Source of the DNA: Owenia fusiformis
Taxonomy: Eukaryota; Annelida; Polychaeta; Sabellida; Oweniidae
DNA length: 64,000 nucleotides
Direction of reading: 5' to 3'
Assembly: GCA_903813345.2 (NCBI GenBank)
Contig: CAIIXF020000001.1
Location: forward strand, 35,247,366 to 35,311,365
In this document: positions 14,201 to 39,600 of the stretch, piece by piece
Numbering within the stretch: the stretch's first letter is position 1
Layout: each line of letters opens with the position of its first letter
The notes under the pieces: generated by a model
Told to the model about the DNA's origin: nothing
Seen by the model: only the letters and a program-made list of their open reading frames with translations
The model's database searches: none
Position numbers and translations under genes: made by a program

Positions 14201-17200
14201 CAAGTACAACTTACTTGGTTAGTTGGATCTCTTTGTAGAATCTCGTTATATTCTTGCTTAGCCTTTTCATATTCTCCTATTGCCTCTAGCTCCATACCAA
14301 GTAACTTCATGACTCGTAAACTATTAGGAAATTTGTTATGTAGGGCAGTTATACAATCCTATAAAACACAACACAGCATAATATATATATGGATACCAAC
14401 GTCCAGCATCTTAAAGCCATTAAACATTATTCATAGTCTGAAAGCATCAATTAAGGTGCAGAAATATCTAACAAATGACGTAATTCATTTATTCCTTGGG
14501 GTTAAACGCAATTATGACACGATACGCCATTGATTTATGACAATTTAAAATTTCAACATTTCACATACTGTACAGAGTTAATTTCAAAATGTACCTGTCC
14601 AATCTCCAATCTACCACAATCAAAGGCTGCAATGCACACTTGCTCATAGATTAACCATACTGAAACAAGAGGAAAAACAAATAATGACAAATCATAAACT
14701 AGATGTGTGAATTTTCTTCAAATTAACTAAAACTATAACATTCACTGGAATGAATATACTGTACTGTACAACAAGTCATAAGTTTATACATGTACAGTAC
14801 TAGGAACTTTGATTGATAGTCATCTTGAGTAATAGATTCTTTTAAAATTGGAATAATTAGGTGCTGTAAACAGTTTATAATTTGAAAATGATCATGCAGC
14901 CAGTCAAAATCAGTATCTCCATAAAGTTGAGAATTCGGAGAATCATGAAGAATTTGTTATTTTGAATATGTCGTTTGAATATCTTGTCAGAATTCAGTTG
15001 ACTAATTTCAATATTATATGATTGTAGCTTACACTCATCCCCAAGCCATGGTATGTTGTTCTCTAATACTGTTTCCCAGAGTTCTACCACCTCCTCACTA
15101 CATCTGTAATTTTGTTCTCTAATCACCTTCACACGCTCTTTGGCACCTACAAGCATAAAATTCCCACAACTGGGGTCAGCTGAAAGATCTCCATTTAATT
15201 TAAGATACCCAAAGCCTTTAAAAGAGATCTGACTGGTGGAGCTCTAATACAGGATATGCCTTCCCATGATACTAATGGTCAGTTCATCTCTGTAATTGAT
15301 CTCATTGGTCCTCAACATTTCAGAAAAATTGCCAGAACTCATCACTTTCTAGAAAGGAACAAATAGAAAGCCATTTCTTATGGTTGTTAATGGTCCCATG
15401 TGTAAAAAATGTATATTTCAGATTTTTTAGTTTTTTGTGCAATAAGCCTGTGCCGTCTTGTAATTTGAAGAATTTCAGCCATGTTAATCTTATTGAAAAT
15501 AACATGGCAGAGAAACATCCAAATATAATAGGCCACACACTTTATAAGCCAAACTAGAAGCAATCCAAGATATACAAATGTCATTCATGTACATTATGAA
15601 TATACTTTTCACACCAGAGATTACAGAAAACACCATGAAGTTTCTTAAAATCCACTAGAAACAATAACCAAATTTTGTTAAGACTATGTGATCATTTGAT
15701 TAAATTGGCTGTTTCTTGTGATGTGATGTAACTGAAAGATGAAGAGCATCGGACATCACCAGAAACTATCAAATTTGGACATTATCTTAACACTCTGAAA
15801 ATTTGGAACAATTGTCTCAGGAAATCTCTATTCACATCGTCAATATTTATTATTTATATTTATTAAATTAGCAATGTGTATGTAGATAATCATGTTTTTA
15901 TTTTTGAGTTATTTCCTTAAAGAGGCTCTATACCATAGGATAGCACAATCAAGACCCCTCTGGACCTTTTTGCATATTGGGATTAACCACATATTCATCC
16001 ATCTACTTACTCTTACCCTTTAGTGTTAATTTTAATTAATTCAATCTGAAGTTTAAATAAAATATACCGGGAAAATCCCCCTGTTATATGATTAATCGTT
16101 GAATTTGTTTATCATGAACCTGAATGGCTGCTTGGTTCTAGGCGCGTTAGGTGCTTGTGTGACCCAACGGGGATTCCTCTCGCTAGCCGAGTAATCGATT
16201 GTGTTTAACTCTGGAGGTTGGTTGTTCTGTTGATTATTTCAATATTTCGGTAATAATATACCCTTAAGTTATTCTCAAGATATATCCATGGTATGTGAGA
16301 TATTATATTAGCAATAACGAAGGGACATCACAGTGTGTCGGATAAGCAGTCGTCATTCGCCAAATACCATCAGAAAATACATCTGACGAACAGTTTTGAT
16401 GGAGCACTTGCCATATCGGCGATCTGGGATCAAATCAGACTTGAAAACCCGAAAAATAATGGCATATTTCTGCCAAGGAACTCACCGAAAGATATTTATC
16501 GTGATGATGCACTGAATTACAAAATATGCCACTTTTTCCGCATTTTAGTATAAGTAATGATGAAGTACTCTATTATCGCCTGCTGACTTCTTTCGAAAAT
16601 TATTTTTTCTGTGTATTTCGGTAATAATACTTGGTTATTCTTTGATATTTCTTGAACTTTGTGAAGCAGGGTGAATGGTTATTAGAGGTCGGCGCTAAAA
16701 ACGGCGATTACTGTTACTAAGCCACGATAATTTTTGGTTCTTCATTAATTTTCTGTGTAGATCTACAAACTTGACTTTTATGAGGAATATTTGGAGTCAC
16801 GAGACCTAAAATGGCTGCAATCTAAATTCCAAAGTTTTGTTGTCTAATAGAACATTGATTTACTCCAACAACAGACTGTTGAAGGAGCAAAATAAGGTAA
16901 CAACAAATAAATTATGTATTGATTCAAAAATCAGAGATACACGATAGTTGAAAAAAACTTGATAGCCATTGTGGCTAATTCTTCCGAAAATTTTTTAGCC
17001 AACCAAAATATGAATTAGCCATTTTGACCGAAAAAAATTTAACACTTCTGATGACCGTTTTCCTTTTAAAAAATGGAATAAAATACTAGGAAGACCATAT
17101 TTGGTTGAAACCAGCTATACTGTTAAGCTGCTATACATTTATTAAGCATTTTTGAAGGACACAACTACCCCGGAGAGAATATACAGATACATGATGATGC

Positions 17201-17955
17201 GCCACAATACTGATAGAGTTCTACTGTGAAATAGCATAGTGTGTAAAATTAATATATATGTCGCGTCATGAGTGACCAGAAATCTACTTTTCCGAAAAAG
17301 TTTTCTTCTGAAAAGTCGTTAAAATTCAACATTTATAAAGTTGTTTGGTGAGTAAACCGTAAAAAAAGGGAATTCGCCATAACTGCGAAATACCTTTACA
17401 TATTTTTCGCCACCTCTTTCGAAAATTTGCGATTGGCGAATGTCTACCGTGATCTCTGCAAAAATATAGCATATTATAAAAAATGGGCTCGGTTTTTTCT
17501 CCAGTTTCCCAGAGCTTTTGTCAGCTCAGTAGAGTAAGAAATATGGGAAGTTACCTACCATTCTAGACATCTAGTTGAAAGCCCATGGAGATGGTGAAGG
17601 TAAAGGTCAATTCGAGGGTCATATTTTGGGGTGTGGTTTTTGGATGTACTATTTTGGGTTTTGTGTCCGGTCTTCGCATTATTTAATTGAGCCTACTTCC
17701 AATGGGGACTGGATCTGACTCGGGGCCTGGTGTGCCACAAAAAAAAATTAGATCTATCAAAAAAATAAACGCCGGTAATTTGTCAAGGAATTCTTACATA
17801 ATTAGCTCAGGCAGTAACAATAAAATTGTTAAAATGAAACAATGGTATAATCAGTTAGTAGAGTGATGTTTGAAATGAAGATCAATAATGTATGTTTTCT
17901 GTTTAAGTATGAAATATATGTTCCTACCATCTAAACTTGAAATTTTTGACGCCAT
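11269..17955 (-). CDS. EMC2: ER membrane protein complex subunit 2 (TPR protein)
   Basis: Nine coding exons on the minus strand: 17955-17928, 15146-15033, 14659-14595, 14358-14215, 13718-13633, 13311-13170, 12858-12757, 11642-11547 and 11373-11269 (stop at 11271-11269). They sum to 882 nt, 293 residues against 297 in human. Signature stretches are [50 protein letters not shown] and [25 protein letters not shown]2 is the cytosolic TPR scaffold of the EMC insertase, which places transmembrane proteins in the ER membrane. The start [10 protein letters not shown] was chosen because exon 1 joins exon 2 in phase across a GT-AG intron and the ATG faces the DNALI1 start. The N-terminus is shorter than in vertebrates. 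The donor of exon 7 sits in a tandem array repeating that donor. Confidence 0.95.
11841..12800. repeat. 44-bp minisatellite built from EMC2 exon 7 end plus splice donor
   Basis: About 20 tandem copies of a 44-bp unit fill much of EMC2 intron 7. On the gene strand each unit reads ATGAGGGCCTTGTTTGGTG, then TTTTATTG, then the donor GTGAGTAGC and TATATAAC. The first part is the coding sequence for MRALFGVLL at the end of exon 7. Copies differ at a few sites (CTCATG/CTCGTG, TAGCTA/TAACTA), drift most at the distal end near 11841-11960, and one carries an 11-nt insertion near 12604. Because 44 is not a multiple of three, use of a more distal donor shifts the frame. Confidence 0.95.
13391..13620. 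mobile_element. MITE fragment in EMC2 intron 5
   Basis: The stretch TTACTTTGACGTAAGTCGTC through AATCTGCAACTTGACTT closely matches the right half of the foldback element at 51070-51575, including GTAACAAAAGCGAGGGGCTA. It is therefore a one-armed copy of the same non-autonomous family. It occupies most of the 321-nt intron between exons 5 and 6. Confidence 0.8.
15147..17927 (-). other. EMC2 intron 1
   Basis: This 2.8-kb intron separates the 28-nt first coding exon from the rest. I see no further exon, RNA gene or well-bounded transposon in it; it is AT-rich single-copy-looking sequence. Confidence 0.6.
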
Positions 17956-18111
17956 TCTGTATACGGTAGTTCTCGTTCACCACGAGATTTAGACGAGATA
18001 TCTCCTCTTGCGCATGCGCGTTTGACTCATTACTATAGCGACAAAGAAGCCAGGTTAAAAATTTCCACTTTCACATACGTTTTCATTGTTTTTCTCAACT
18101 TTACATTCAAA
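17956..18111. promoter_or_regulatory. Bidirectional promoter interval between EMC2 and DNALI1
   Basis: Only 156 bp separate the two divergent start codons. The interval holds the palindromic core TGCGCATGCGCG at 18009-18020, matching the known NRF1 recognition sequence, and several TCTCGT/ACGAGA motifs in both orientations at 17970-18003. No convincing TATA box is seen. Both transcription start sites must lie here or just inside the genes unless further 5' non-coding exons exist. Confidence 0.75.
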
Positions 18112-21100
18112 ATGATACCACCAAATGCATCCCTCGTAAAATATGACAACCCTGTACTCGTCAGTAGAAATACAGACAAGAAAACTCCAAGAGTAAGTAT
18201 GAAATCACAGTTCAAAACTAAAAAATATTTTCCTTCGGGCTTCAGTCTGAGTTCATATTCAGTTCAACTCATTAGCGCCCTAGCTTACTCAACTTCAAAT
18301 TGAAGCTCAAGTTGAAACAAATTTTACCACTTTACAGCTGACACTGGTGACAGAGGTAAGAAAAGGACAAAATATAATATATGTTATCAAACCTCTATAA
18401 ATTTTCTTCTGTGCTTGCTGAATCTCTCTGGCGGTAAAGGTATCACGACATTATATTCCAGCCCCAAAGGACAGAGGCAATGTCATCCATATAGGTAATC
18501 GCATACACTGAGTGTCCGACAATTACCTACTTGGACTACATTACCTCCATGTAGTCTACTCTATATCTGCTTAGGCTGAATGGGCTTAGCTATAGCTTTT
18601 TTGCAGATTATATAGACAAGAGGGAAAATACTTCAGAATTCTTTCCTAAGGCTCAATTTTGTTTATTTTACATTTCCAAGATAAATTTAAAATAAGAGTG
18701 AAAATCCTTCACAATATATAATTTTGTTCTCGCTGTTGCAGTCTGAGGATTGAAATTTACATTACAGTACCCTGTAAGAGGCTAGAGGTGTATTGAAATC
18801 TAACAAAAAGGTGTACTGGGCTATTCCTAGAAAATACATAAATAAAATATGAAACTGTGTCTTTCTGAAATTGAACTACATGTACATATACTGAACTCAG
18901 AAGGACAACGATCCATTTGTTCAATTGTCATATTTTTGAGCATCAAAATAAGGAACAGAACTCACATTGTATGTTTCATGAGATCTGATTTATTGCATTA
19001 ATATTTATAGGCAAGGGCCCTTAAAGTGAGTCCCCAACAGCCATCTAATGGAGGCCCAGTGCCAAGTCCACCTCCTGGCAAACAGAAGCTTGCACCAGTA
19101 GATGCCAAGAACTCCCAGCAAACAGATGAGATCCTCAACTCTATCCTTCCACCAAGGTAATATCAGCAAAGTAACAAAACTTGTTGGAATAGTGTTATCA
19201 GTCAAACTCCTGCATTACTAACTGACATACATGTATTATCTATTGTACTCAATTTTGAATAAAATACATATAAGATGTTGCTGTTTATTTTAGCAAATGA
19301 GAAATCAATTGACCATAAAATCATATACTTAACCCTTGTACATCATCAGGGACTCCCCTCTCCTTTGATTGGAGCAAACAGCATTAGATATCACAATATT
19401 GTATGTTAGCCTACACATTTTTTACATGCTTCAGGGAATGGACTGAGGCTGGGCAGCTGTGGGTACAACAAGTGTCGAGTACCCCTGCAACCCGTCTAGA
19501 TGTTGTTAACCTACAGGAAGAACTTGACCGTAGACTACAACAGAGACAAGCCAGGGAAACAGGAATCTGTCCAGTCAGGAGAGAACTCTACTCACAATGC
19601 TTTGGTTAGTCAATGCCTCCTTAAAAAAATAATCCCCTAAACTACTGTAGTATAGGGTGACCCAAAAATGAAAGCTATGAAAATGAATAAACAAGGTATT
19701 AACATGCATAATGTCACCACCTGCCATTTCCATAGATGTCAAACATCGACTGTCAAAAAGCTTCACAAAAAATAGAGACTACTGTATAATGATAGGTCAT
19801 CACTTGTGGTCGTGACATAAAAATCCCATAATTGATTCATTTTGTGAGAACTACATATTTGGCACAACTTTGGTCAATACCTGTCTGTAATCTGTCTGCT
19901 TCAGATCCAATCTATCATAAATCAGTAGTTGTGAACTTTTATCATTCACACCCTGTATTGAATGCATTGCATTGCATTTGGGTATAATCAGAGGACACTT
20001 CAACATAAGGATAATCTGTACGGGATAAAAGCAATTCAAATGACTTGTTTATTTGAAAAATATTGGCAAAGAAAGATGAAACAAAATTCAAACCTCGACA
20101 TATTGATGCAAGAGCATTCTATTAAACACTCTAGGCCTATTATATTTACACAAAAGAAAATTTAAGATGAGTCCATCAATATTGAAAAAGTCGTTTGATA
20201 TTCAGTTTTGACATTACCCCGCCCTTTATCATATTTCATGTATTTATATCAAAGCAATTTCTCCTTTCTCATCATGAGACAAATCTGATGAAAAATTTGA
20301 ATTACTGATCGGAAATCATTTGATTTGATTAATCATCCATATTAGCATTCATTGTTATTGTTTTATTATTGTGGAAACTTTTGAGACACATTCTTGACAG
20401 GTAATTCCAGGTCGAAGCATCTTTCAGTTGCAAGTCAGAGATAAATTGTCCCCCTCTGCTATTCCACTTCATTAATAACCTTGATTATGATGGACTATTC
20501 CATTGAACTTTGAAAATATAGGCAACAAGTCAATTTACCCAAGTTATCACCCGAGTTTTCAATCATAAACTGTACCTTCATCATTCCTTAGATGAACTGA
20601 TTCGCCAAGTGACAATCAACTGTGCAGAACGAGGCTTGCTGTTACTGAGGGTTAGAGATGAGATCCGCATGACCATAGCTGCCTATCAGACTTTATATGA
20701 GAGCAGTGTGGCATTTGGAATGAGGAAGGCCCTGCAGGCAGAGCAAGGCAAAGCTGAGATGGAGCAGAAAGTAAGTGGAATTGAAACATATTTTAAACTA
20801 TGACGCAGTCAAATACTAAATGTGTTTTGCTTAACAGAAATGAACAAGGCATTAACATGACAAAATGTCACCACCTTATTGCTCACAATATTAGGAGTTC
20901 AATCTTAAGTCAGATTTGAATTTCTGATAACTTGTAGATGACTTTGAAAAAATGAATTGGTAAATTTGAAGAAAGTTGAAAAAATACCCTTTTTGACCCT
21001 GAGATCATTGAAGGTGAAATTTCAAATCTAAAGTTAGATTTGAACTTCCGAGAACTTGTAGATGATTTTGGAAGAAAATTGGTCAATTTGAAGCAGGATG

Positions 21101-23033
21101 AAAAAATACCTTTTTGACCTTGAGAATGTCATTGAAGGTCAAATCTATAGTCAGATGTGAACTGTTGAGAACTTGTAGATGATTTTGAAAAAAGAATTTG
21201 GTCAATTTGAAGCAAGTTGAAAAAATACCTTTTTTGACCGTGAGAAGGTCAAATCTCAAATCTAAAGTCAGATTTGAACTTCTGATAACTTGTAGATGAT
21301 TTTGAAAAAATATCGGTCAATTTGAAGCCTTTTTGACCTTTTTCAACCTTGAGAAGGTCATTGAAGGTCAAATCTCAAATCTTAAGTCAGATTTGAATTT
21401 CTGAGAACTTGTAGATGATTTTGAAAAAATAAATTGGTCAATTTGAAGCAAGTTTAAAAAAGACCTTTTTTGACCATGAAGGTGAAATCTCAAATCTAAA
21501 GTCAGATTTGAACTTCTGGGAACTTGTAGATGATTTTGAAAAAAAATTGGTCAATTTGAAGCAAGATGAAAAGACCCTTTTGACCTTGAGAATGTTATTG
21601 AAGGTCAAATCTATAGTCAGATTTGAACTGTTGAGAACTTGTAGATGATTTTTCAAAAAAAAAATTTCAATTTGAAGCAAGTTGAAAAATACCTTTTTGA
21701 CCTTTTTTGACCTTGAGAAGGTCATTGAAGATCAAATCTCAAATCTAAAGTCAGATTTAAACTTCTGATAACTTGTAGATGATTTTGAAAAAAAATCAGT
21801 CAATTTGAAGCAAGTTGAAAAAGACCTTTTCAAATCTTAAATATAATGTCAGATTTGAACTTCTGAAAACATGTAGGTGATTTTGAAAAGAATTGAAGTC
21901 AGTCTAAACAGTATCTGTTAAGTTATTGGAAGTTGTAAGAATTTGTTAAAGACACTGATCGCCAACTGCCAACCACCAACCGCCGTCAAAAAAACGGAGA
22001 CCATAACAATATGTCACCACTTTTTGGTGGTGACATAAAAAATAAAAAGTGGTTCCATTTTCACCCTTTAAGATATCTTGATGTGAATGTTGAACATATC
22101 TAAAACGATTAAGGAAAAGCACCTGGAATCTTCCACATCTTTTATTACATCATTTAGTATTTGTATTCTGGCCTATCAAATTCTTTCTCAATCAAGAAAG
22201 ATAAAACGAGGATACTGGTATATCAGAATGTATCATTTGCATCACTAGGTCAAAAGCATGTACCTGGAGAAGACTCAAGGATATTTTGAATATACTTTTA
22301 TATCATTGGCTCATATAGTATTACTATATTTAAATGCTTCTACTTCATGAATATGCCTGCATTTTCAAATTAAAAGTTACAGAAATTAGATTATCATATG
22401 GTTCCTTTCGTGTTTAGATCGATGAGCTTGAACAAGACAAAAGAGATTTAGAGCGTCAGGTAAATGAACTGAAGGCCAAATGTGAGCAGATTGAGAAACG
22501 TGCAGCAGAACAACGTCAAGTTGAAGAGAAGAAACACACAGAGGAAATCCAGTTCTTGAAGAGGACAAACCAACAACTCAAGGTATTTTAATCTGTTTTT
22601 TCCAAATATACAAGTACATGTACAGTTTTAATAACTGAAGTCATGTAAGACTAAGGCAAATATTGATGCATAAAGTTGTCTTAGGAGCACATTCAAGATT
22701 ATCTTTTCTACTTGTTTGCCAAATAACGTGCAATAATACATGTGATCTTTTAAGTTCCAACCTCTACCCAGACATTTCAGGTTTCCTTTATTTATGTTAT
22801 ATACAAAGACATATAATACTATATTTTAAGTTTGCTGCTCTGAAAATATAGTCCTTTTACTGTACTTCTATTATTACTCATCACTAGCAATTAATATTAT
22901 CACATTTTAATTGTCAAACTTGTATTTAAGGAAATTCAATTACAGTAACATGATTTGAGACCCACTAAAGTTACATAAAAATATGTTTGTTTTACAGACT
23001 CAGCTTGAAGGCATCATAGCTCCCAAGAAGTAG
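18112..23033 (+). CDS. DNALI1: Axonemal dynein light intermediate chain (p28 family)
   Basis: Six coding exons: 18112-18192, 19011-19156, 19435-19604, 20592-20770, 22418-22582 and 22998-23033 (TAG). All junctions are GT-AG and in phase, giving 258 residues, the usual family length. The start MIPPNASLVKYDNPVLVSRN matches the conserved N-terminus of the family, so this ATG was preferred over an in-frame one at 18022. Near-invariant blocks follow: LWVQQVSSTPATRLDVV, RQARETGICPVRRELYSQCF, ELIRQVTINCAERGLLLLRV and AAYQTLYESSVAFGMRKAL. A coiled coil from about residue 165 ends in QLEGIIAPKK. The protein belongs to single-headed inner-arm dyneins of cilia and flagella, so expression should follow ciliated tissues. 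Intron 4 contains a 118-bp tandem array. Confidence 0.97.
20885..21890. repeat. ~118-bp tandem array in DNALI1 intron 4
   Basis: About nine imperfect copies, marked by AACTTGTAGATGATTTTG at roughly 20930, 21052, 21170, 21288, 21406, 21521, 21634 and 21770. Each unit also carries AGTCAGATTTGAACTTCTG and TTTTTGACCTTGAGAAGGTC. Unit length varies between about 113 and 136 bp. The array is flanked by AATGTCACCACC near 20866 and by the terminal palindrome at 22010-22037. Confidence 0.9.
22010..22037. repeat. Terminal palindrome of a minisatellite-bearing mobile element
   Basis: TATGTCACCAC, a TTTTT loop and GGTGGTGACATA form a near-perfect hairpin. The same structure with small changes ends at about 30688, again preceded by AACAATATGTCACCA and by short CCAACCNCC-type repeats. 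A shared hairpin end next to tandem repeats resembles non-autonomous Helitron/Helentron-like elements; that assignment is inference. Confidence 0.6.
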
Positions 23034-24639
23034 AAACAGAGAACTGGCAAATATAAGCGTGATGAATCTTCAAACAAATCTAGAATATTTGGAAAACTAT
23101 TCAATGGACAATCCAAACCTGATACATGGAAACTAAGGCCAGATACACCCGCATGAACACTGGAAAACATTAAACCTCTTCACTATGAATAAATGTGCTG
23201 TGATAAGTTATAATCATTATGCAGAGTAAAGCGAAAACTTTCGAGATTCATAAATAATCCGTCCAATTTATATAAAGTGTTCTCGAACTTTTTTATCATC
23301 TATTTTCCGTCCAATGTAAGCTGCTCGATTAAATATTTTAATATTATATAAATCCATTGAATTTTTGTTACAAAAATGTAAATATCATTTAAATGTATAT
23401 TGTTGTGTAGTAATATAATATGTAAATATAAACTTTAGGACTTATGTTTGGTTGATGGTAAACACTTTCATTCATTCAGAATGCAACAGATCTTTCCAAT
23501 AAATCCTGCCTTGCTGATTGCAAGGTTTCCTCATAAAAAAGGATCTACTTTTAACTTATTTTGAAAATCGAAAAGTTGTCACTCATTCTCCGTGGATGAT
23601 CCATTCCGTGGTAATACATGGCCTTGGATTGAATGTCTTTAACTGGTAAATGAGGTTATTATGAACGGCACTGACCCGCTCAGTCATATACAACTAAAAT
23701 ATCTGTAGCCAACAAGTGAAATCGGTTCCAATCATCGAGATTTAAAATATACTTTATGACAATTTTTTTTTACGTTTTGGCGAATGTAAACAAAGGACAT
23801 TACTTCACTAAGGCTTTTAAACTCTTCACTCGTAAGGTTTACAATTGATTTCTATACCAAGAAAAATCAATTTTCCTGAGACTGGGTGCTGTAGTATTGC
23901 GAAACATCTCCATTTCCATAGGGTAAGATCACCATTTTTACTGAAATTATCATATCAGTGATACATAAAAGGACAACTGAAATAGGTTTTCTCAACTTGC
24001 AGCTACAAAAGTGCAGTTTTCTTCATTGTAAGCCCAACGTTCTTGTGATAACCATTATAAAAGAAATGTTAGATAACTGTAAATAGTCATAAATACCGTA
24101 GTAAAATTAACTGATCAATCAGATTGGCATTAACTAAAATTTGAATCAAATCAGACTACATGCATGGTGTACATGTTTTTTGTTTTTTTATTTCTGTATA
24201 TCTCTACCTTTCAGGAGGCTATGAAACCAAATTAGAACATGAGTAATTCAATTTCTATTCTAACAGAAGAATGTCATATTTCTCTTAAATTCTTTTAGAA
24301 TTGTGTATTTCATATAGCTGCCATGTAGGATTATGTACATTAATAAATACATTAGAAAGGAACATATAAGAGTTGCATTGTACATCACAAACACACCCTC
24401 TGCATTTCTACAAGTTAAAACATTTCTAAATTTAGTCATGTCCTTATTTCTGGGAGAATGACCTTGTCAGAAAGTCAGCTTGTATCACATACCAGACTGT
24501 TTATTAACTAAACGATAGACTTCTCACATATAACAGAATCTTTGGTTAGATTCAAATATATTAATCTTGCATTGCACTTGGATGTGTATCAAACAGCAGT
24601 CTGCCTAGTTCATCACATACAGGAGAATTACATTATCAA
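23034..24639. other. Convergent 3' ends of DNALI1 and HMGCL
   Basis: No coding sequence is seen. AATAAA at 23498-23503 (plus) is a plausible DNALI1 polyadenylation signal about 465 nt after its stop. TTTATT at 24500-24505, AATAAA on the minus strand, lies about 135 nt after the HMGCL stop. The two transcription units point at each other. Confidence 0.55.
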
Positions 24640-27600
24640 TCACAATTTAGATTTGGCCTGGGCTACTTTAGATGATGTATTTCTACCCAGTTCTTGGCAT
24701 ATATAAGTCCCTGCCTTCATCACCTTCTCCAAACTCACACCCTGAAAACAGAGGAGAAAAAACTCATTCAATATTAAAGTGTGCGCCAAAGTTTAAAACT
24801 GCGCAGGCGCACCGCTCTCGCTAAACTATATAAAGAGATTGCCCGGTACACAATTCAGAGGTAAGCCAGGAAGGCGAACGATCTTCGTCTCGTGACGATT
24901 TCCCATATAATCTTAACCAGGGAAGTTTCAACATTGAAATTGAAAATTACTATTAGATATACTTTGTAGATGTTATTTATGAAGCTATTTAGTGTTTGCA
25001 TCAATCAAATGGCTCATTTTGAACATATAAAACGTATTTGTGTTTTGTTTCCCAGGGAATTGTATTGTATGTAGTACACACATAAATAGTGTACATTATA
25101 CTTGAATAGCCTGGTTTACATAATATTGAAGGGCATGCTGATTACATGCACACGAGTACATGAATGAAGGCCTAATATTGATATACGTAGCTTGCATACC
25201 TAAATAAAAAATAAACTCTTCTAATCACCTAATGTAAACACGGCGGTATACGTAGCCTGATTTATCGGGGACTTTAAGAGGTAATTCTTCGCTTGAAAAA
25301 TGATAAATACTGTATGCATATGTTAATCATGGAAAGCATAATGTCATAGTGGTAAGACTAGACTCAACAAAAACAAGATGAGATAACAAACATTTGTCAT
25401 AATTTAACAATATTATTTGCTCATATCAACAGTCCATATTATGATATGACTACTTTTTAAAAAATCAGACAGTTCTAACTTTACTTAAAGAATATAGAAG
25501 TTAAAACAAGGTGTATGTTGGTGAATGGATATACTACTCACTGTTTCTATTCCTAAACCATTTAATAAATATAAAACATCTTCAGTTGCTACATTTCCAC
25601 TTGCACCTTTGGCATAAGGACATCCTCCAAGGCCTGCTACAGAGCTATCCACAACTGATACACCCATCTACAACACAAGAACACCATGGAATTACAATAC
25701 AATGAAAGGGCAGGAAGGACATCTCCAAGGCCTGCTACAGAGCTATCCACAACTGATACACCCATCTACAACACAAGAACACCATGGAATTACAATACGA
25801 TGAAAGGGCAGGAAGGACATCCTCCAAGGCCTGCTACAGAGCTATCCACCACTGATACACCCATCTACAACACCAGAACACCATGGAATTACAATGCAAT
25901 GAAAGGGCAGGAAGGACATCCTCCAAGGCCTGCTACAGAGCTATCCACCACTGATACATCCATCTACAACACCAGAACACCATGGAATAACAATACGATG
26001 AAAGGGCAGGAAGGACATCCTCCAAGGCCTGCTACAGAGCTATCCACCACTGATACACCCATCTACAACACAAGAACACCATGGAATTACAATACAATGA
26101 AAGGGCAGGATGGACATCCTCCAAGGCCTGCTACAGAGCTATCCACAACTGATACACCCATCTACAACACAAGAACACCATGGAATTACAATACGATGAA
26201 AGGGCAGGAAGGACATCCTCAAAGGCCTGCTACAGAGCTATCCACAACTGATACACCCATCTACAACACAAGAACACCATGGAATTACAATACGATGAAA
26301 GGGCAGGAAGGACATCCTCCAAGGCCTGCTACAGAGCTATCCGCCACTGATACACCCATCTATAACACAAGAACACCATGGAATTACAATACAATGAAAG
26401 GGCAGGAAGGACATCCTCCAAGGCCTGCTACAGAGCTATCCACAACTGATACACCCATCTACAACACAAGAACACCATGGAATTACAATACGATGAAAGG
26501 GCAGGAAGGACATCCTCCAAGGCCTGCTACAGAGCTATCCACAACTGATACACCTATCTACAACACAAGAACACCATGGAATTACAATACGATGAAAGGG
26601 CAGGAAGGACATCCTCCAAGGCCTGCTACAGAGCTATCCACCACTGATACACCCATCTATAACACAAGAACACCATGGAATTACAATACGATGAAAGGGC
26701 AGGAAGGACATCCTCCAAGGCCTGCTACAGAGCTATCCACAACTGATACACCCATCTACAACACAAGAACACCATGGAATTACAATACGATGAAAGGGCA
26801 GGAAGGACATCCTCAAAGGCCTGCTACAGAGCTATCCACAACTGATACACCCATCTACAACACAAGAACACCATGGAATTACAATACGATGAAAGGGCAG
26901 GAAGGACATCCTCCAAGGCCTGCTACAGAGCTATCCGCCACTGATACACCCATCTATAACACAAGAACACCATGGAATTACAATACAATGAAAGGGCAGG
27001 AAGGACATCCTCCAAGGCCTGCTACAGAGCTATCCACAACTGATACACCCATCTACAACACAAGAACACCATGGCATTACAATACAATGAAAGGGCAGGA
27101 AGGACATCCTCCAAGGCCTGCTACAGAGCTATCCACAACTGATACACCCATCTACAACACAAGAACACCATGGAATTACAATACGATGAAAGGGCAGGAA
27201 GGACATCCTCAAAGGCCTGCTACAGAGCTATCCACAACTGATACACCCATCTACAACACAAGAACACCATGGAATTACAATACGATGAAAGGGCAGGAAG
27301 GACATCCTCCAAGGCCTGCTACAGAGCTATCCACAACTGATACACCTATCTATAACACAAGAACACCATGGAATTACAATACGATGAAAGGGCAGGAAGG
27401 ACATCCTCCAAGGCCTGCTACAGAGCTATCCACAACTGATACACCCATCTACAACACAAGAACACCATGGAATTACAATACGATGAAAGGGCAGGAAGGA
27501 CATCCTCAAAGGCCTGCTACAGAGCTATCCACAACTGATACACCCATCTACAACACAAGAACACCATGGAATTACAATACGATGAAAGGGCAGGAAGGAC

Positions 27601-30600
27601 ATCCTCCAAGGCCTGCTACAGAGCTATCCACCACTGATACACCCATCTACAACACAAGAACACCATGGAATTACAATACAATGAAAGGGCAGGAAGGACA
27701 TCCTCAAAGGCCTGCTACAAAGCTATCCACCACTGATACACCCATCTACAACACAAGAACACCATGGAATTACAATACGATGAAAGGGCAGGAAGGACAT
27801 CCTCAAAGGCCTGCTACAAAGCTATCCACCACTGATACACCCATCTACAACACAAGAACACCATGGAATTACAATACGATGAAAGGGCAGGAAGGACATC
27901 CTCCAAGGCCTGCTACAGAGCTATTCACAACTGATACACCCATCTACAACACAAGAACACCATGGAATTACAGTAAAATAAAAGGGCAGGAAGGACATCC
28001 TCCAAGGCCTGCTACAGAGCTATCCACCACTGATACACCCATCTACAACACAAGAACACCATGGGATTACAATACGATGAAAGGGCAGGAAGGACATCCT
28101 CCAAGGCCTGCTACTGAGCTATTCACAACTGATACACCCATCTACAACACAAGAACACCATGGAATTACAGTAAAATAAAAGGGCAGGAAGGACATCCTC
28201 CAAGGCCGGCTACAGAGCTATCCACCACTGATACAACCATCTACAACACAAGAACACCATGGAATTACAATACAATGAAAGGGCAGGAAGGACATCCTCC
28301 AAGGCCTGCTACAGAGCTATCCACAACTGATACACCCATCTACAACACAAGAACACCATGGAATTACAATACAATGAAAGGGCAGGAAGGACATCCTCCA
28401 AGGCCTGCTACAGAGCTATTCACAACTGATACACCCATCTACAACACAAGAACACCATGGAATTACAATACGATGAAAGGGCAGGAAGGACATCCTCCAA
28501 GGCCTGCTACTGAGCTATCCACAACTGACACACCCATCTACAACACAAGAACACCATGGAATTACAATACGATGAAAGGGCAGGAAGGACATCCTCCAAG
28601 GCCTGCTACAGAGCTATCCACAACTGACACACCCATCTACAACACAAGAACACCATGGAATTACAATACGATGAAAGGGCAGGAAGGACATCCTCCAAGG
28701 CCTGCTACTGAGCTATCCACAACTGATACACCCATCTACAACACAAGAACACCATGGAATTACAATACGATGAAAGGGCAGGAAGGACATCCTCCAAGGC
28801 CTGCTACTGAGCTATCCACAACTGACACACCCATCTACAACACAAGAACACCATGGAATTACAATACGATGAAAGGGCAGGAAGGACATCCTCCAAGGCC
28901 TGCTACTGAGCTATTCACAACTGATACACCCATCTATAACACAAGAACACCATGGAATTACAATACGATGAAAGGGCAGGAAGGACATCCTCCAAGGCCT
29001 GCTACAGAGCTATCCACCACTGATACACCCATCTACAACACAAGAACACCATGGAATTACAATACGATGAAAGGGCAGGAAGGACATCCTGAAAGGCCTG
29101 CTACAGAGCTATCCACAACTGTTACACCTATCTACAACACAAGAACACCATGGAATTACAATACGATGAAAGGGCAGGAAGGACATCCTCAAAGGCCTGC
29201 TACAGAGCTATCCACAACTGTTACACCTATCTACAACACAAGAACACCATGGCATTACAATACAATGAAAGGACAGGCCTTAGATCTGCTAATACATACA
29301 ACTCTTGAATTTGGTACCCGATTTTACAAGAAAAACACCAACTCTCTAGAGTAGCAAATCACAATGCATAAATACGTATTTTATCAAAATGGTTTTGAAC
29401 ATATCATGACTGTAATAACCAGGCAATAGGATTGTTGTCTTAAGTAATATCTATTATCTACACCTACACCAATTTAATTAGGTGAATCAGCTAAACACAT
29501 TTTTTGTTGACTCAGTTTTTTATAATCGTGTTGACTAATTTTTTCCGCCTCTTTCACCATCACTTATAATATAATTTGCCAGAGATTTCTCATATCATGC
29601 CTCATTACAGTGAAACCTGCATATCCGAACACCTCTTTTATCCGAACATCTCTCAATGTGAACACCTTTTCTTGGTCCTAATTTTATTCCCATTGATTTT
29701 CATGTTTATAAAACCTTGGAATGTGAACACCTGCTAATCTGAATACTTTTGGTCAGTCCCAGAGGCATTCGGATTAGATAGGTTTTACTGTACTATTCTT
29801 TACGTAAACGTAAGTCATCATATGATGCAGATTGTGTAAGAATGAAGGCGTAATTGAGTGCTCTTTACATCAGTTAAATGTAATTTTGTAAAGTTAATAA
29901 GTAGAATAAAAGCAATAATTTGTGAATATTGCAAAATATTGCAAGTTAGTCATTACTCTTTGTGTCAGTAACATTTAATTCAGAAAAATCAGTAGGCACT
30001 AACATTGTGAAATTAAAAAAAAAAGATTTTACATAAGTAAATTCTGTAAAATAATTAGGCACTAATATTGTGAAAATGGTTTACAAAATGAAATGCGTCA
30101 AATCAATGACGTAAACAATATCCATATTGCTATGAAACACAAGAAGAAATGACGACAATATTCTACACTGTAATACAAGTCATTTACCGGACAGAATGTC
30201 ACCACTTGGCTGTATGTAGTATTAGGGACCAATGGAAAACTTCAATGTTAGAGAGTGAACTATATTCTAAAAGTTAACTCTCAGATACCCCCTCCCCTGT
30301 AAACTATACATGTATATGAGAAATGTTGACACTCATAATTCTAACAGGTTTCCAACTTTTGGCAACCTATATAGGACTTTAATTTTCTTTTTGACTATCA
30401 TGTATTCCTTTATAAGGGATGATTGCTTTATTTAGTGAACAACTTTGAGCTTTTGTATTGCAGTCTTACATGTATCTAAAGCTGATAACTGTCCACTAGA
30501 CAGACTAATGGCATTGTTCAGCATGAAAAATGTTGCCTTTGGTACCACTACAATACCACAAGATGATGTGGGTTGTGTTTTGAAAAAACTGACCACCGAA

Positions 30601-33600
30601 CATTAATCACCAAATGCCAACCGCTGAATACAGTTCACAAAAAAGTTGGGAAATATAACAATATGTCACCATTTCTGGTGGTAACATAAAAAACATTTTG
30701 AAATGATACACACCTGTAGAGCTGCATATATATTACTGATTGCCTGTCCATATGTATCATGACAATGCACAGCTAGCTTGTTTAAAGGAACACACTTAGC
30801 AACTTCCTCTAACATCTCAGACATGGCTATGGGTGTAGCTACACCTATAGTGTCACCTAGCGATATCTCACAGCATCCCATATCATATAGTTGCTTGGAT
30901 ACCTGCAAACAGTGTATTGTAGGTAGAGGTGCATCAAGGAAAATGGAGGGGAATTATGGGAAACAAGTCCTTTCAGACGCATTTGCGGAGAAACTGTTCA
31001 ATATCATTTTATTCATTTTATGAGACACACTTTAAATGCAGAACTGCTGGATGTACCGTATGTTAATAACCATTTTTAAGGAGGTAATTTCCTTTTTTTG
31101 ACGAAAGATCGTATAAGATTGTGACCAATAGAAGCGGGCTAAGCAATATCACTTCACTAAGAATATCACTTCTTAGAGCAGATTGAACAAGCACATTTAT
31201 CTGGCCTGAATTAAGCACAGGTCAAAGGGTTTAATCAAAGCACAATCTAATCTTGAGTCATTATTGGGCAACTTTCCCATTAATAAACCTGTGACCCATA
31301 TGATCTGGAGCCAATCTGCGTGAATCAACCTGACAAACTAGAAAACAGCAACTCCTCGGAGTAGCAAATCATCTTAAAAATGTCTTCTTGAGCAGGGCTC
31401 CTTTGTACCCAGACAACAGCATATAAAATTTGAACCAAATCCATCCACTAGTATTTGAGTTATCAAAGATTATATTTTTTCCGAAAAATGGCTGCCATTT
31501 TGAATTAAGTGGCCATATTGAAAATTCCTTCTCAAACAGAGGTCCTACACCCATAAGGCATAAGCCTATAAAATTTGAATGAAATCCGTCAACCGATATT
31601 TGATTTATTGCCCGGACACACAAACAGACGGACGGCTTTCCTATATCCCTCTCGAACTTCGTACAGTGGGATAATAAGTCTTACCTCAGCTACTTTTATA
31701 GGGTGAATCTTTCCTTCATACGGGCAACCCACTACACAAGACACATACCTGGAACAATCAAATACAACATTGATTACCCTGAATATACCTAAATATTCTG
31801 GAGGCAGTAATAGTCTATATACCACTTATCTCTGCAGCAAGCAAATAAATGACAATATCTTGATAAGTCTCAGAACTATTTCTATGACAGGGACAATAAA
31901 GTGTCTTTTAATAATAAATGTCTTATAAACAGGTTTAACAGTGCAGAACACATGAACATTTCTTCAGTACACATTATATAAGTTAAGTAAGCTTACATAT
32001 ACATGTACATGTATAAGTCAATCACCTGGAGGAATTAAGGACATGTTGAATACGTAATACAAGCTGTAAACAAAATAACAAACACTAGCAAATCAAACAC
32101 ATAATCTGTGTATATTGTGAAAAACTGCCATTTATGAGAAGTGCCAACAAAGAATATGTATTTAGTAGAATGGAATCATAAGTAAGGATTGAAAACAAGG
32201 AATGGTACATACCCCCTGACAGGTATTTTGTCTCTCTTTGCTGCCTCCATTACCTCAGACGACCTGCGCAAACTCTCTGCAATGTCGCAGTTAATATTTT
32301 TTCTGGAATAAAATTCAAATTTTAAGTTTTGGTACATCCCATATCCAATCCTTCCCGATTATTACATTTTAAATAAGAATCAATGTACATGTATATTAAG
32401 GACATTTAGTACATTTGATGTGTGAGAACAGTATTACCAATAATTTTAACTACTAAGATGTTTGCAATTTAGATTGCAATGAAAAAAATTAACAGCAAAT
32501 AATCATGGAGGTTGAAATAATAATTTATTCCGTATTGTATATTCGCATTAGGGCATTAGGGACTCATCAAGCAAAGGTAATGGCCGTCACCTTCGCATCA
32601 AAGATGGCGGATGGGAAGTGTCGATTTCGATGCTTTCAGTTTTCATCGAATTAAACTACTTTGTAGTTGACGTAATGCTTTGATATTTGAACTAAACCCG
32701 ACTTATATGATGTCTCGTTGCCGTGCATGGAAACCAACATGACCGTTACTGTATCTTACATTACCAGTTACCTTCCCTTAAGCGGTGGAATATATCCTTG
32801 AACTTGGGCGCCCACCCATGATATATGAACAAATCATCATATTCCATAGTTATATGAGTCTGATTTGGTTCAAACATCAAAGCATTACGTCAACTATAAA
32901 GTGTAGTTTAATTTGATGAAAACTAAAGATATTAAAACCTTCGCTTGATACTTACCAGTGATCTGTATAAATGCTTGAAATTGCAAACTGTATGAATATT
33001 GAATACCTGTTTATAAATTATGGTATGTAAAGGCAGTAAAAGACAAACATACTTTGAAAAACTTTCTGATGCCGCTACGAATACTGCAATTTCATCTGCC
33101 TTTGCTGAAACCTTAAAACAAAAAGAATTCAATAAATACTTCTAAGATTTCTTAAATGCCAAATTCTATTACATAACAATATATTAACATAAAAACACTT
33201 GTGAAGATTCTTGTGAATCAACCAATGACTAAATAATTGGCTTTTGTGACGTCAACCAGAACTTCTTCCGCCATCATTAACAAAAATTACAATATATACT
33301 TGTCATAGTAATCATTAGAATTTTTAAACAAACAACATATTCTATTCTTACAACACTTAACTAAAAAAAAACACTTAAAAAGTGTAAATTATGGTGAATC
33401 AGCCGATTCCTAATATAATTGGCTTTTGTGACATCAAGCTTAACTTCTTCAGTTATCATTATTCACAGTGTAATGCTACGTTACAAAAATGTTATTTATG
33501 AGTTCATTAATGCATTGCCATAGTAACATACATGTATATGTTTATTGTTGTTCACATGTGCACGTTGACAATAACATTTCAACATGAGTCATATTGACAT

Positions 33601-36600
33601 TTTAAATTATGGCAAATGGTTCAAAAGTGTAACAATATGTTCCAGTCACCAACCACCCTCTGGCAACCACTGAAACCAAATGCCAATCAATGAACACTGA
33701 ATGCAAGCCACTGGCACCAAATGCCAATCAATGAACACTGAATGCAAGTCACTGGCACCAAATGCCAATCAATGAACACTGAATGCCAACCACTGACACC
33801 AAATGCCAATCAATGAACACTGAATGCCAACCACTGACACCAAATGCCAATCAATGAACACTGAATGCAAGCCACTGACACCAAATGCCAATCAATGAAC
33901 ACTGAATGCCAACCACTGACACCAAATGCCAATCAATGAACACTGAATGCCAACCACTGACACCAAATGCCAATCAATGAACACTGAATGCCAACCACTG
34001 ACACCAAATGCCAATCAATGAACACTGAATGCAAGCCACTGACACCAAATGCCAATCAATGAACACTGAATGCAAACCTCTGACACCAAATGCCAATCAA
34101 TAAACACTGAATGCAAATCATTGACACCGAATGCCATTTCGTGAACACTGAATGAAAACAACTGAATTAACCAAATGCCAATCAATGAATACTGTTTGTC
34201 AACCACTGACACCAAATGCCAATCAATGAACACTGAATGCCAACCACTGACACCAAATGCCAATCAATGAACACTGAATGCAAACCTCTGACACCAAATG
34301 CCAATCAATAAACACTGAATCCAAATCATTGACACCGAATGCCATTTCGTGAACACTGAATGAAAACAACAGAATTAACCAAATGCCAATCAATGAATAC
34401 TGTTTGTCAACCACTGAAACCAAATGCCAATCAATGAACACTGAATGCCAACCACAGACACCAAATACCAATCCATGAACATTGAATGTAAACCACTGAC
34501 AACAAATGCCAATCAATGAACACTGAATACAAACCACTGAAACCAAATGCCAATCAATGAACACTGAATACAAACCACTGAAACTAAATGCCAATCGATG
34601 AACACTGAATGCCAACCACTGACACCAAATGCCAATCAAAAAACACTGAATACAAACCACTGAAACTAAATGCCAATCAGTTAACACTAGTGTTGTCGCG
34701 ATGTGCCATAATCGTACATCGATGCATCGGCAATTTTCAGTAGTAAACATCGATGCACATCGCGATGTACATCGAGAAAAAGTTCGAGAAAAGTGCACTG
34801 AAATACCGAACGCTAATGCACTAAAATATCGAACAGAACAAATTAATAAGAGTACGCTGGTATATCCGGGAACATAGCAACAGTGAAATGAAAGTAAAGT
34901 AATTTTTTTAGATTAATGGTTCATTTCGACTAGCTAAAACAGTTTTAAAGCGAAAGAATATCAGAAAACATTTGAAAATGAAATAAGACATGAAAAAAGG
35001 TAAGCAATTTGCGTCAAAATAAGATAAGAAAGGGCGATTTTTAGCAAATCAATTTTTTTTAAAAACATCTATGTTTTGTTTCAGACATCGATGCATCCCC
35101 AGAACCAGCTTTGGCGATGTATATCGCGATGTATCGATTAATCGCAACAACACTAGTTAACACTGAATACAAATATACAAGTGTGAATGCCAAAGGGAAG
35201 GGTGACTAAAAACTTTAAAGAAACCCAACAAGAAAAGCAAACTGTAAGTGTAGATCTGTCATAAGAAAAGTAGACCCTATATATCCCAAAACCATGATCT
35301 AATGTGAAAAGAAACAATGTCTAACTTCCCCCTCCCCCTCCAATCGAGAATATCACAATCCAGGACCAGAACACCAAGGGACATTTCATTCATACTGAAG
35401 TCATTACAATACATGTTGAAGAAAAATTGAAAAAATTGATAGCCAATACTCATAACATCAAAAATAGTTGTAGATACTAGTGCTCATAAAATATAGAGTA
35501 TTCAGTCTCAAATGATGTGGGATAGATAAAACCCAGTCTCGAAGTCCATAAGCAATTCAAAGGGTCAAAGTCCGTTCCCAAAGCCATCGTCATAATCCAT
35601 AAAACACAATAATTCACAATGGTCATCAGGAGAAAACTATGGCTGGTTTCAATCCCTATTTCTCAAACATTAATGCCATAGCCGGGATCCACCTCAAAAG
35701 GTGCCAAGTGAAAAAATTGTGAGTTCATTGCCAATTTATTATACCATTCCTACATCCTTCAACATCTCAAGTGGTAAAACTTGAAATTTCGAAATTAATG
35801 ATTTGTATTTCTTAAGTTTTTTACAAGTATAACCTTGACCTAACAGCTTGATCGCTAAAATATGGTGTCTTGATTTGAAATCTAGATATTTTGAACACGC
35901 CCTGCTATAATAAAGTACAGACACCATATGCCAATCAAAGAATACTGAATACAAACCACTGACACCAAATGCCAATCATTGAACACTGAATGCTGACCAC
36001 TGACACCAAATGCCAATCATTTAAACCTGCACATCGCTCCAAAACGCAATATGTTGACATATATTGTTTTTACATTTTCATATCGCCGGCTCCGATCGAA
36101 GCAAATTCAATGAAAAATCTTTGAAATGACACATTTATCGTAAGTATTTCTACACAAGATTTGCCCCATTTGTTCATCATTCTATAATCTTTCATTAAGC
36201 TCAAAATGATAAAGTTCACCCCCGAAACAACCCAAGATTGCGTTTCGGAGCGTAGTCCAGCTTTAACACTGAATGCTGACCACTGAAACCAAATGCCAAT
36301 CAATGAACACAGAATGCAATTAAATAATCCAAGCCCAACTGTCAAAAGGGGAAATTTCAAAAGAAATTCCACAAGATTATAGGAATCAGTCAGCCTTTCG
36401 ATTTTAACTCTCTATCCTTGATTCCTAAAATCAGCACAATTCATTTTCTCAAGTTTTTCTTGGAAGTCAATAAATGCACGCTTCACCGAATTAATGACAC
36501 TGCTCATGAAAACCCCATTAGTCAGGAACACTGCAACCTTTTTCAAACATTGATTAATGACAACATAATGTCCTGAACTTAAGAGGGTGGAACCATATCA

Positions 36601-39600
36601 TCTAGAAATGTGTCAAGAACACAGGAAGTTTTATTTTGCATATCATTTATTGAACAACTAAAACAACAAAAAGCCAATCCTGCAATAAGGCAGGTGCATG
36701 TACTTTGTTTCTGAGACAGATCATTTACAAAATTCACATCAATTCTTCTTGTGACTGAAATAATACTATGTATGTTTGTATGATAACCAGAACAACGGCA
36801 ACGCCAAAGCGTAGCGAATCCCATCGAACAGAAATGGCTGGCATTTTTACAAAGAAATATATAGCAAATATCATAAAATAACACACATAAGAAAGGTCAC
36901 CATTTTCAAAATGGTTGCTCACTAGCCAAGTTGTCATCAGAAGAAGTAATATGCTTTTTCTTTATAGTATTCACATACCAAATATGAACAAAATTGCTCC
37001 ACTACTTTTCGAGTTGTAGTAAAATACTTGAAAATGGTGGAAATTTTTCAAAATGGCCCGCCTTCTACCAAAAGTATGTCATTAGACAGTGTGCCATGCT
37101 TATAGTATTCACATACCAAATATGAACAAAATCACTCCACTACTTTTCGAGTTACAGCAAAAATCGTAAAACAACGAGTAAAGGCAGAGTAAAATACATT
37201 TAAATGGCGGCCATTTTTCAAAATGGCCACCTTCTACCAAAAGTGTCATTAGACCGTGTACCATGCTTATAGTATTCACATACCAAATATGAACAAGATC
37301 GCTCCACCACTTTTCGAGTTATAGTAAAATACGTTAAAACGGCGGCCATTTTTCAAAATGGCCACCTTCTGCCAAAAGTGTCATTAGACAGTGTGCCATG
37401 CTTATGTCATTCACATACCAAATATGAACAAAATCGCTCCACTACTTTTCGAGTTATAGTAAAATACATTAAATTTGCGGGGAGCCTTCTACCAAAAGTG
37501 TCATAAGACAGTGTGCCATGCTTATAGTATTCACAAACCAAATATGAACAAAATCGCTCCACTACTTCTTGAGTTACAGCAAAAAGTTATAGTAAAATAA
37601 GTTAAAATGGCCACCATTTTTCAAAATGGCCGCCTCCTACCAAAAGTGTCATTAGACAGTGTGCCATGCTTATAGTATTCACAGACCAAATATGAACAAA
37701 ATCGCTCCACTACTTCTTGAGTTACAGCAAAAATCGTAAAATAACGAGTAAAGGCCGCCATTTTTCAAGATGGCTGCCATGTGCTTCTTTAATATCTATA
37801 TTTCTAGCTTTATCAATGTCCTATATAATTTTTTACATTTAAAACATATTGCTATTACAGTTTTACATATTGCACTTAAATTACTGTAAAATCGGCACTA
37901 AAATGGCCGCCATTTTTTAATGAGCGGCCATTTTGAAAATCAGCTTTCGAGCAGAACTTCTACCCCCATAGGGTATATGTGTACAAAATATGAATAAAAT
38001 CAGGCCAACGGTATTTGAGTTATTGCCCGGACGGACGGACGGACGGACGGACAGACGTACGGACGTACGTACGGACAGACGGACGGAGGCGTTCCCTATA
38101 TCCCTCCGAACTTCGTTCGATGGGATAATTTATAAAAAAGCAAAAGGAATGTTAGAGTGCAACTTGATAACATCTGAGCAACAAGATAATTGAAGATCCT
38201 GTTAGCATTTCAATCTTTACTGCATACCTAAAATTCCAGTAAACTTGATCACAATGACATACATATAGTGAAATTATTTATTTTTGAGTATTTTCTGAAC
38301 ATAGTGATTGTTCAACAATATAATCCTTGATGGAGGAAGCACCAATCAATAAAAGTGGCTTTGTCAGTTTGATGCAATGTTGTTTGTTAATTAGACGATG
38401 ATTATACATCATTCATGGCAGGTACTTCATAAAATAGGTTACAAGAGCACAATAATAGATCGCTACATGCACTTTTTATGCTTTTGAAATGTTGCATACC
38501 CGTCCTTTAGTTCAACAATACAATTCAATACTTCCAACATTCATAAATAGATCCATTAGCGATGCCAATCTGATATTCAAATATAAATACTTTAAATTTT
38601 TATCTCAATTTATCAATTTACTCAAGGATATATGTAAGATAGGGTCTAACCCAAATAACTGCCATTCCTCAGATACAGGGTGACACAAAAAGTGCCACCC
38701 AAATAATGTTAAATAACCTTTTCGTCCGTATGATTCCTGACTTTTTTTTGCACATTAAAACTAAACTTCATGGAGCGACTCCACAAGAAGTTTCAGATGA
38801 TTGACTTAACTAGGCCCAATTTTATAAGCTTTATTTTCACAAAGAAAATATTTTTATGGAGCAAATCAAGTGATTCAGTATGGATTAGACATGTCAGAAA
38901 TATTCTTATATCAGTAGATATGGAACAGGATTTTATTGATGAACAAGTTTTCAACCTTAAACTGTTAGAAACGTCTTTAATGGGAAATTATGTTCCTGCA
39001 TGGGAAGTAGCAATAAAGGCTAAGCCAAAATTGCGCACTTATGTAACCTTTAAAAAAGTGCATAAAGTAGATAAGTATCTGTTACAATAAATTTTTCAAA
39101 ATTTGAGCAAAGTCTAGCAGCTCAATTTAGACCAGGTATTTTGCCACTTAGGCTAGAGACAGGCAGATTTAAGGGCGAACATGTGGAAGAAAGATTATGT
39201 ACACTATGTAACGATAAATCAGTTGAAACAGAAATACATTTTCTATTCCATTGTAATAGATATGATGATCTGAGAAAACATATTTTGATGAGGTAGATTT
39301 TAAAGATCTGGATAATGAAGGTAGCAAGGGAACATACCTGTAAAATTGTTAAATTTATTAAGATGGCTTTTGTGCGGAGAAGGCAATTCATTTACAACCT
39401 ATGATATTGATTTTCATGTATTAATTTTGTATTTCCTATTGTTAACAGTGGTTAATAAGCCCAAGGTGGGTTGGGTAAAATTGTAATTAATTTTTTATAT
39501 TTTATAATTGAATTGTAAGACTGACCACTATAAATAAATAAATAAACTAAACTAAACTAAAACTAAACTATAAGACATTCTCTAAATGTCAGAAACACCT

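Follow-up and report, generated by a model that had tools for sequence, protein, structure and literature searches.

How does a gene keep its message intact when one of its splice acceptors is repeated dozens of times ahead of a single exon? The question was raised by HMGCL of Owenia fusiformis, in which a tandem array covers an intron-exon boundary. We analysed the surrounding 64,000 nucleotides of genomic DNA (the window), together with samples of the rest of the assembly. In the assembly, COX1 found no match, and the annelid haemoglobin-linker family PF16915 scored 3 matches above cut-off but 0 in 14 control genomes (prokaryotes where named), which makes an annelid origin probable from the sequence as well.

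The HMGCL gene and its repeated acceptor

When HMGCL exons 2-10 were joined, an open sequence of 299 amino acids and a stop was obtained, with GT and AG present at the intron ends. The product matched human HMGCL (2cw6) with an E value of 9.4e-131 and scored 463 bits against the HMG-CoA lyase family profile NF004283 (cut-off 246). The eight introns between these exons were 284-7511 nt long with a median of 766, six of them spanning just 284-800 nt, and the one between the penultimate and the last coding exons measured 800 nt. A candidate for exon 1, picked by eye near 44440, was dropped as it gave no in-frame junction; the number "exon 9" for the penultimate coding exon hangs on an exon 1 without confident placement and is provisional. 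The features used below were as follows (window coordinates).

24640-24741, minus strand: last coding exon of HMGCL, ending in a TGA stop
25542-25667, minus strand: penultimate coding exon of HMGCL (126 nt), directly after the terminal acceptor; the terminal repeat copy takes up its first 52 nt (25616-25667)
25616-29277, minus strand: minisatellite of 37 copies of a 99-bp unit, each unit joining an HMGCL acceptor to the first 52 nt of the exon (TRF and motif script)
25659-29351, plus strand: antisense open frame over the array, 1231 codons, no stop
25668-25714, minus strand: intron-like part of the terminal acceptor, with pyrimidine-rich tract and AG (from the sequence)
29179-29277, minus strand: 5′-most copy, carrying changes that copy 2 also has (the ATG start codon turned into ATA), with other intron sequence upstream
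30714-30902, minus strand: preceding exon of HMGCL, 189 nt, donor CTACAG/GTGTGT
31685-41629, minus strand: HMGCL exons 2-7 by protein match (41629-41564, 41279-41172, 40718-40623, 33111-33053, 32302-32213 and 31748-31685)

The array was described by TRF as 37.0 copies of period 99 with 96% matches and a score of 6771. An acceptor motif scan by script on the minus strand, in which up to 5 substitutions were tolerated, counted 37 motifs in head-to-tail order, spaced by exactly 99 nt in 35 of the 36 intervals and by 98 nt in one, because the exon-like part of copy 36 is one base short. Read on the minus strand, a unit is composed of 47 nt of intron-like and 52 nt of exon-like sequence, the intron-like part being pyrimidine-rich (TTGTGTTGTAG), and the acceptor AG was intact in 37 of 37 copies. 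The exon body and a donor are reached by the terminal copy only, which leads into the 126-nt exon, in frame and with the donor ACA/GTGAGT, and both homology and splice signals identify this terminal unit as the HMGCL acceptor plus exon start. A preliminary description of this stretch had proposed about 37 copies of a 99-bp unit made of a polypyrimidine tract, an AG and about 50 nt of exon, with some 37 nearly identical acceptors standing before a single donor and only the last unit running on into the exon body; all of this anatomy was borne out. The array makes up 72% of its host intron, and a putative branch point presumably lies inside 25668-25714. The 17 codons within the repeat give residues identical to human HMGCL in the 2cw6 alignment, GGCP among them.

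A dispersed repeat or transposon was rejected: a search of the assembly with the unit DNA (one that passes over very common words) gave 38 matches, and the array locus alone was matched. Of 18 HMGCL boundaries used as queries, one, the exon 9 acceptor, produced matches in an array (37); for some of the others, short matches turned up at other places in the window. Related repeats were seen on the minus strand at 31680-31625, 38129-38028 and 43690-43580 (82-83% over about 55 bases), the last two continuing into a CCGT/CGGA microsatellite near 135-bp repeats. Elsewhere in the window, candidates for a DNALI1-like gene (plus strand) and an EMC2-like gene (minus strand) were noted by eye within 14000-23060, and a kinase-domain exon lies at 2040-2246 on the plus strand (G000:C1:35249405-35249611).

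A protein search of the 498-Mb assembly with HMGCL placed 8 of 8 matches at this locus (exon 5 here was missed by the search), and no paralogue that might serve as backup was found. Since HMGCL was found at one place only, a working acceptor seems to be needed. It is very improbable, in our estimate, that the array breaks splicing on this haplotype and that the other allele supplies HMGCL; such a loss-of-function allele would agree with the one haplotype in view and the single HMGCL locus found, against it stand the open exons 2-10, with GT/AG intron ends, and an intact terminal exon.

Consequences of acceptor choice

From the donor of the preceding exon it is 1483 nt to the first of the array acceptors and 5046 nt to the terminal one. 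The first is transcribed 3.6 kb ahead of the last, which counts against the main use of the terminal acceptor proposed below. Reading from the terminal acceptor to the donor and on into the last exon yields the HMGCL C-terminus. When the 36 upstream acceptors were read in the same way, every one led to a premature stop. The preliminary description had predicted an in-frame TAA for a retained distal acceptor; the early stop was indeed common to all 36, although this TAA, at residue 25, was the first stop in 27 of them and not in all. In seven others a GGA to TGA change gives a stop at residue 14, one reads on to the next TAG at residue 33, and copy 36 stops at residue 43 after a frameshift. A coding tandem repeat in the exon frame was rejected on account of these stops, found in 36 of 36 read-throughs.

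The premature stops lie 95-3647 nt ahead of the exon junction. Nonsense decay usually follows a 50-55 nt rule, under which decay of all these products would be expected. The terminal acceptor gives an exon of 126 nt, and the nearest upstream choices would give exons of 224, 323 and 422 nt, lengths at which exon definition could still work. Copy-number tuning of HMGCL, as had been suggested for this array, is possible as a hypothesis but gained no support here. In its plain form, 36 decoy acceptors would feed nonsense decay and the length of the array would set the HMGCL level; the stops in 36 of 36 upstream products, all 95 nt or more ahead of the junction, and the exon sizes of the nearest decoys speak for it, and we nevertheless regard it as unlikely given the lack of significant constraint on the decoy copies described below.

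Choice of the terminal acceptor

The next question is what could direct splicing to the terminal copy. From position -20 to +3, 26 of the 36 other copies are identical to it, and copy 10 equals it from -46 to +52 (98 nt). As copy 10 matches over these 98 nt, local sequence carries no mark of the terminal site, and position must choose. The earlier suggestion that the downstream donor favours the terminal acceptor is therefore upheld to the extent that position relative to the donor was the only visible distinction. Most likely, position acts through exon definition: the terminal acceptor would be favoured as the sole one 126 nt from the donor. A published survey reports that, where flanking introns are large, the splice sites closest across the exon are favoured (PMC9225289, in the portion available). 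From these features we infer that the terminal acceptor is probably the main one in use, and exon definition is the best-supported mode of action for the array locus. With six of these eight introns as short as they are, exon definition cannot be taken for granted in this species.

Donor-like signals inside the units were then considered. On the gene strand the array held no GTRAG site and neither AATAAA nor ATTAAA. GTRNGT was present at three sites, all of them GTGTGT (copies 5, 7 and 8). This is also the donor hexamer of the exon before the array, and the absence of donors from the units therefore holds with that reservation. AGGTR occurred at four places (copies 1, 2, 20 and 28), four bases 3′ of the main AG. 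The GTGTGT and AGGTR sites all lie four bases into the exon-like part, where their use would give four-base exons or none; the units are thus not expected as separate exons.

In the copies at 29228, 29129, 27347 and 26555 (minus strand), ATG is changed to ATA and the junction reads TAG/GTGTAA or TAG/GTGTAT. These copies may resemble a recursive splice site, but with a poor donor. In a recursive splice site the AG is followed directly by a donor GT, an arrangement absent at the main AG here: the terminal boundary reads AG/ATGGG. A more elaborate form of dosage control can be built on these copies, in which the array is a length-variable splicing rheostat: decoys, near-identical in sequence to the real acceptor and differing from it in distance to the donor, would divert a set share of HMGCL to nonsense decay, and the four TAG/GTGTA(A/T) copies would serve as occasional recursive points. 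We hold this rheostat to be decidedly improbable.

Variation among the copies

Among the 36 full units, 27 distinct 99-mers were found. This number bears on the reality of the array, as tandem arrays are error-prone in assemblies and the real copy number might be lower than 37. An artefact of this kind appears very unlikely to us: besides the many distinct units, an exact-match search of the window located each 100-bp flank a single time, and contigs C1-C12 of 32-62 Mb suggest a long-read assembly.

The exon-like part of the units was no less variable than the intron-like part (13 of 53 against 9 of 46 variable positions), and both missense and nonsense changes were present in upstream copies. 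The terminal copy showed 0 differences from the consensus over 63 common positions. In the exon frame, 10 of 24 variant types were synonymous, somewhat above a simulated mean of 6.75 (P 0.094), which counts against a neutral array, and in the open plus-strand frame the corresponding figures were 8 of 24 and 6.13 expected (P 0.24). The copies show no significant coding selection in either frame.

The plus-strand frame deserves a word of its own, since it runs without a stop from 25659 to 29351 and could be taken for an antisense gene whose 1231 codons spell out a 33-residue repeat. With a unit length that is a multiple of three, however, a frame once open stays open in every copy, and 39% of simulations were likewise stop-free; together with the proportion of synonymous changes given above, this leaves the antisense repeat-protein gene with hardly any probability. 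The open frame is judged a by-product of the unit length being divisible by three.

Identical multi-unit blocks recur in the array (copies 18-19 equal 25-26, and 23-25 equal 29-31). At lags 1, 2 and 3, neighbouring copies resembled each other more closely than shuffled ones did, with nominal P values of 0.033, 0.016 and 0.031 (15 lags tested, one array), and P was not below 0.05 at lags 4-15. The recurring blocks and the likeness of neighbours would suit ordinary minisatellite turnover. The repeated codons include GGCP, which we take to be the HMG-CoA lyase active-site motif, and turnover of the array could therefore rewrite an essential coding stretch.

The reading that we consider probable is that of a neutral minisatellite sitting on the HMGCL acceptor. 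It would have originated when 99 bp across the intron's 3′ splice site were duplicated in tandem, and may have grown by unequal exchange or slippage. Splicing would most likely take place mainly at the terminal acceptor, the use of any upstream acceptor would lead through a premature stop to nonsense decay, and for these two reasons the array, having no special function, would be tolerated.

Arrays elsewhere in the genome

The size of the array had been called very unusual. In a survey of 12 arbitrarily placed 10-kb pieces of the assembly (L005-L016), with lower limits of 300 bp for array length, 20 for period and 2.5 for copy number, 11 arrays occupied 17,936 of 120,000 bases (about 15%). In five of the 12 pieces there was an array 1.8-4.9 kb long, in some cases truncated where the piece ends, and the claim is therefore not supported for this genome; by the same rule the window contains five arrays. 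For the HMGCL array it is the position that is remarkable in this genome, not the size. Periods divisible by three were found in 11 of the 16 arrays (11 from the survey and five from the window), a pattern seen post hoc. One surveyed piece held a 96-bp array of 51 copies, in which one frame runs through all 1639 codons without a stop (L007:5083-10000), and this array looks like a coding repeat protein.

For comparison, 30 loci of 144 kinase matches were inspected. Nine arrays of at least 100 bp lay in 6 of the 30 loci, all of them clear of the matched stretch, which in 0 of 30 loci was overlapped by a local direct repeat (E 1e-6, low-complexity masking). At L033, 28 nt separate the end of an array from the start of the kinase-matched stretch. 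The kinase loci make a weak control, as matched stretches were compared and not mapped intron boundaries. A separate observation concerned two adjacent kinase exons (L047:2389-2534 and 2567-2712), a few tens of bases apart and 68% identical in DNA; by eye they appear GSK3-like and are possibly mutually exclusive exons.

Relation to known junction repeats

No report of an HMGCL array was present among the matches listed in a literature search. The closest relatives are the amphioxus "mirages", minisatellite-like tandem duplications of an intron-exon boundary (PMC3087553, PMC3902484). According to the excerpted text, the repeated piece in the globin gene BflGb6 joins an intron end to the beginning of exon 2, with 6 or 3 units depending on the haplotype (PMC3087553); the units are 150-160 bp long and 81-100% identical, and many mirage repeats carry AG/GT signals (PMC3087553, PMC3902484). 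Globin BflGb9 belongs to the mirages too, PGBD5, Adh3 and TnC are cited there as additional examples (PMC3087553, PMC3902484), and RT-PCR is stated to suggest normal splicing of the junction minisatellites (PMC3087553). The HMGCL array shares with the mirages its head-to-tail repeats, a unit lying across an intron-exon boundary and copies that carry the splice dinucleotide, and with BflGb6 in particular the joining of the 3′ end of an intron to the 5′ part of an exon (PMC3087553). It differs in gene and probably in phylum, and stands at 37 units of 99 bp with 96% TRF matches against the 6 or 3 units of 150-160 bp in BflGb6. Judged by these excerpts, the HMGCL array is of the same kind as the mirages, with more units than BflGb6.

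In human ABCA7, a VNTR in intron 18 has 25-bp units, from 12 to about 427 of them, and includes a splice donor; as far as the cited portion describes it, a longer array raises exon 19 skipping and is disease-linked (PMC5954066). Here too a tandem array contains a functional splice site, and retention of one unit gives a frameshift; in ABCA7, however, it is the donor that is repeated, with the unit starting at the donor and flanking the exon, whereas the HMGCL array repeats an acceptor. This case bears in two ways on the tuning of HMGCL by array length discussed above: VNTR length alters the skipping of exon 19, which favours it, but the retention of a single unit is independent of length, unlike skipping (PMC5954066). 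As the length of a junction array can alter splicing in ABCA7, denying the HMGCL array any function may go too far.

Human genes with variable internal tandem repeats, and introns gained through tandem duplication (PMC2812944, PMC2809761), are similar, so far as these sources were available, in that junction repeats provide spare splice sites and nonsense decay may shelter them. New introns were formed in those cases, whereas the HMGCL intron was pre-existing and the copies lie inside it. In earthworm metallothionein genes, large minisatellite arrays are likewise found in an annelid intron, and duplications of an exon missing from the transcript are also reported (PMC12783039); the excerpt places those arrays within intron 1 and does not speak of their spanning a splice junction.

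The junction minisatellites in the papers cited here being from amphioxus and human, the HMGCL array would place one in an annelid. If splicing of HMGCL is accurate, the locus would offer an acceptor of near-constant sequence whose distance to the donor varies in steps of 99 nt (once 98), and the proximity rule of exon definition would be directly measurable from the RNA reads of one natural gene. A genome as rich in minisatellites as this one also allows asking how often selection tolerates arrays at splice junctions.
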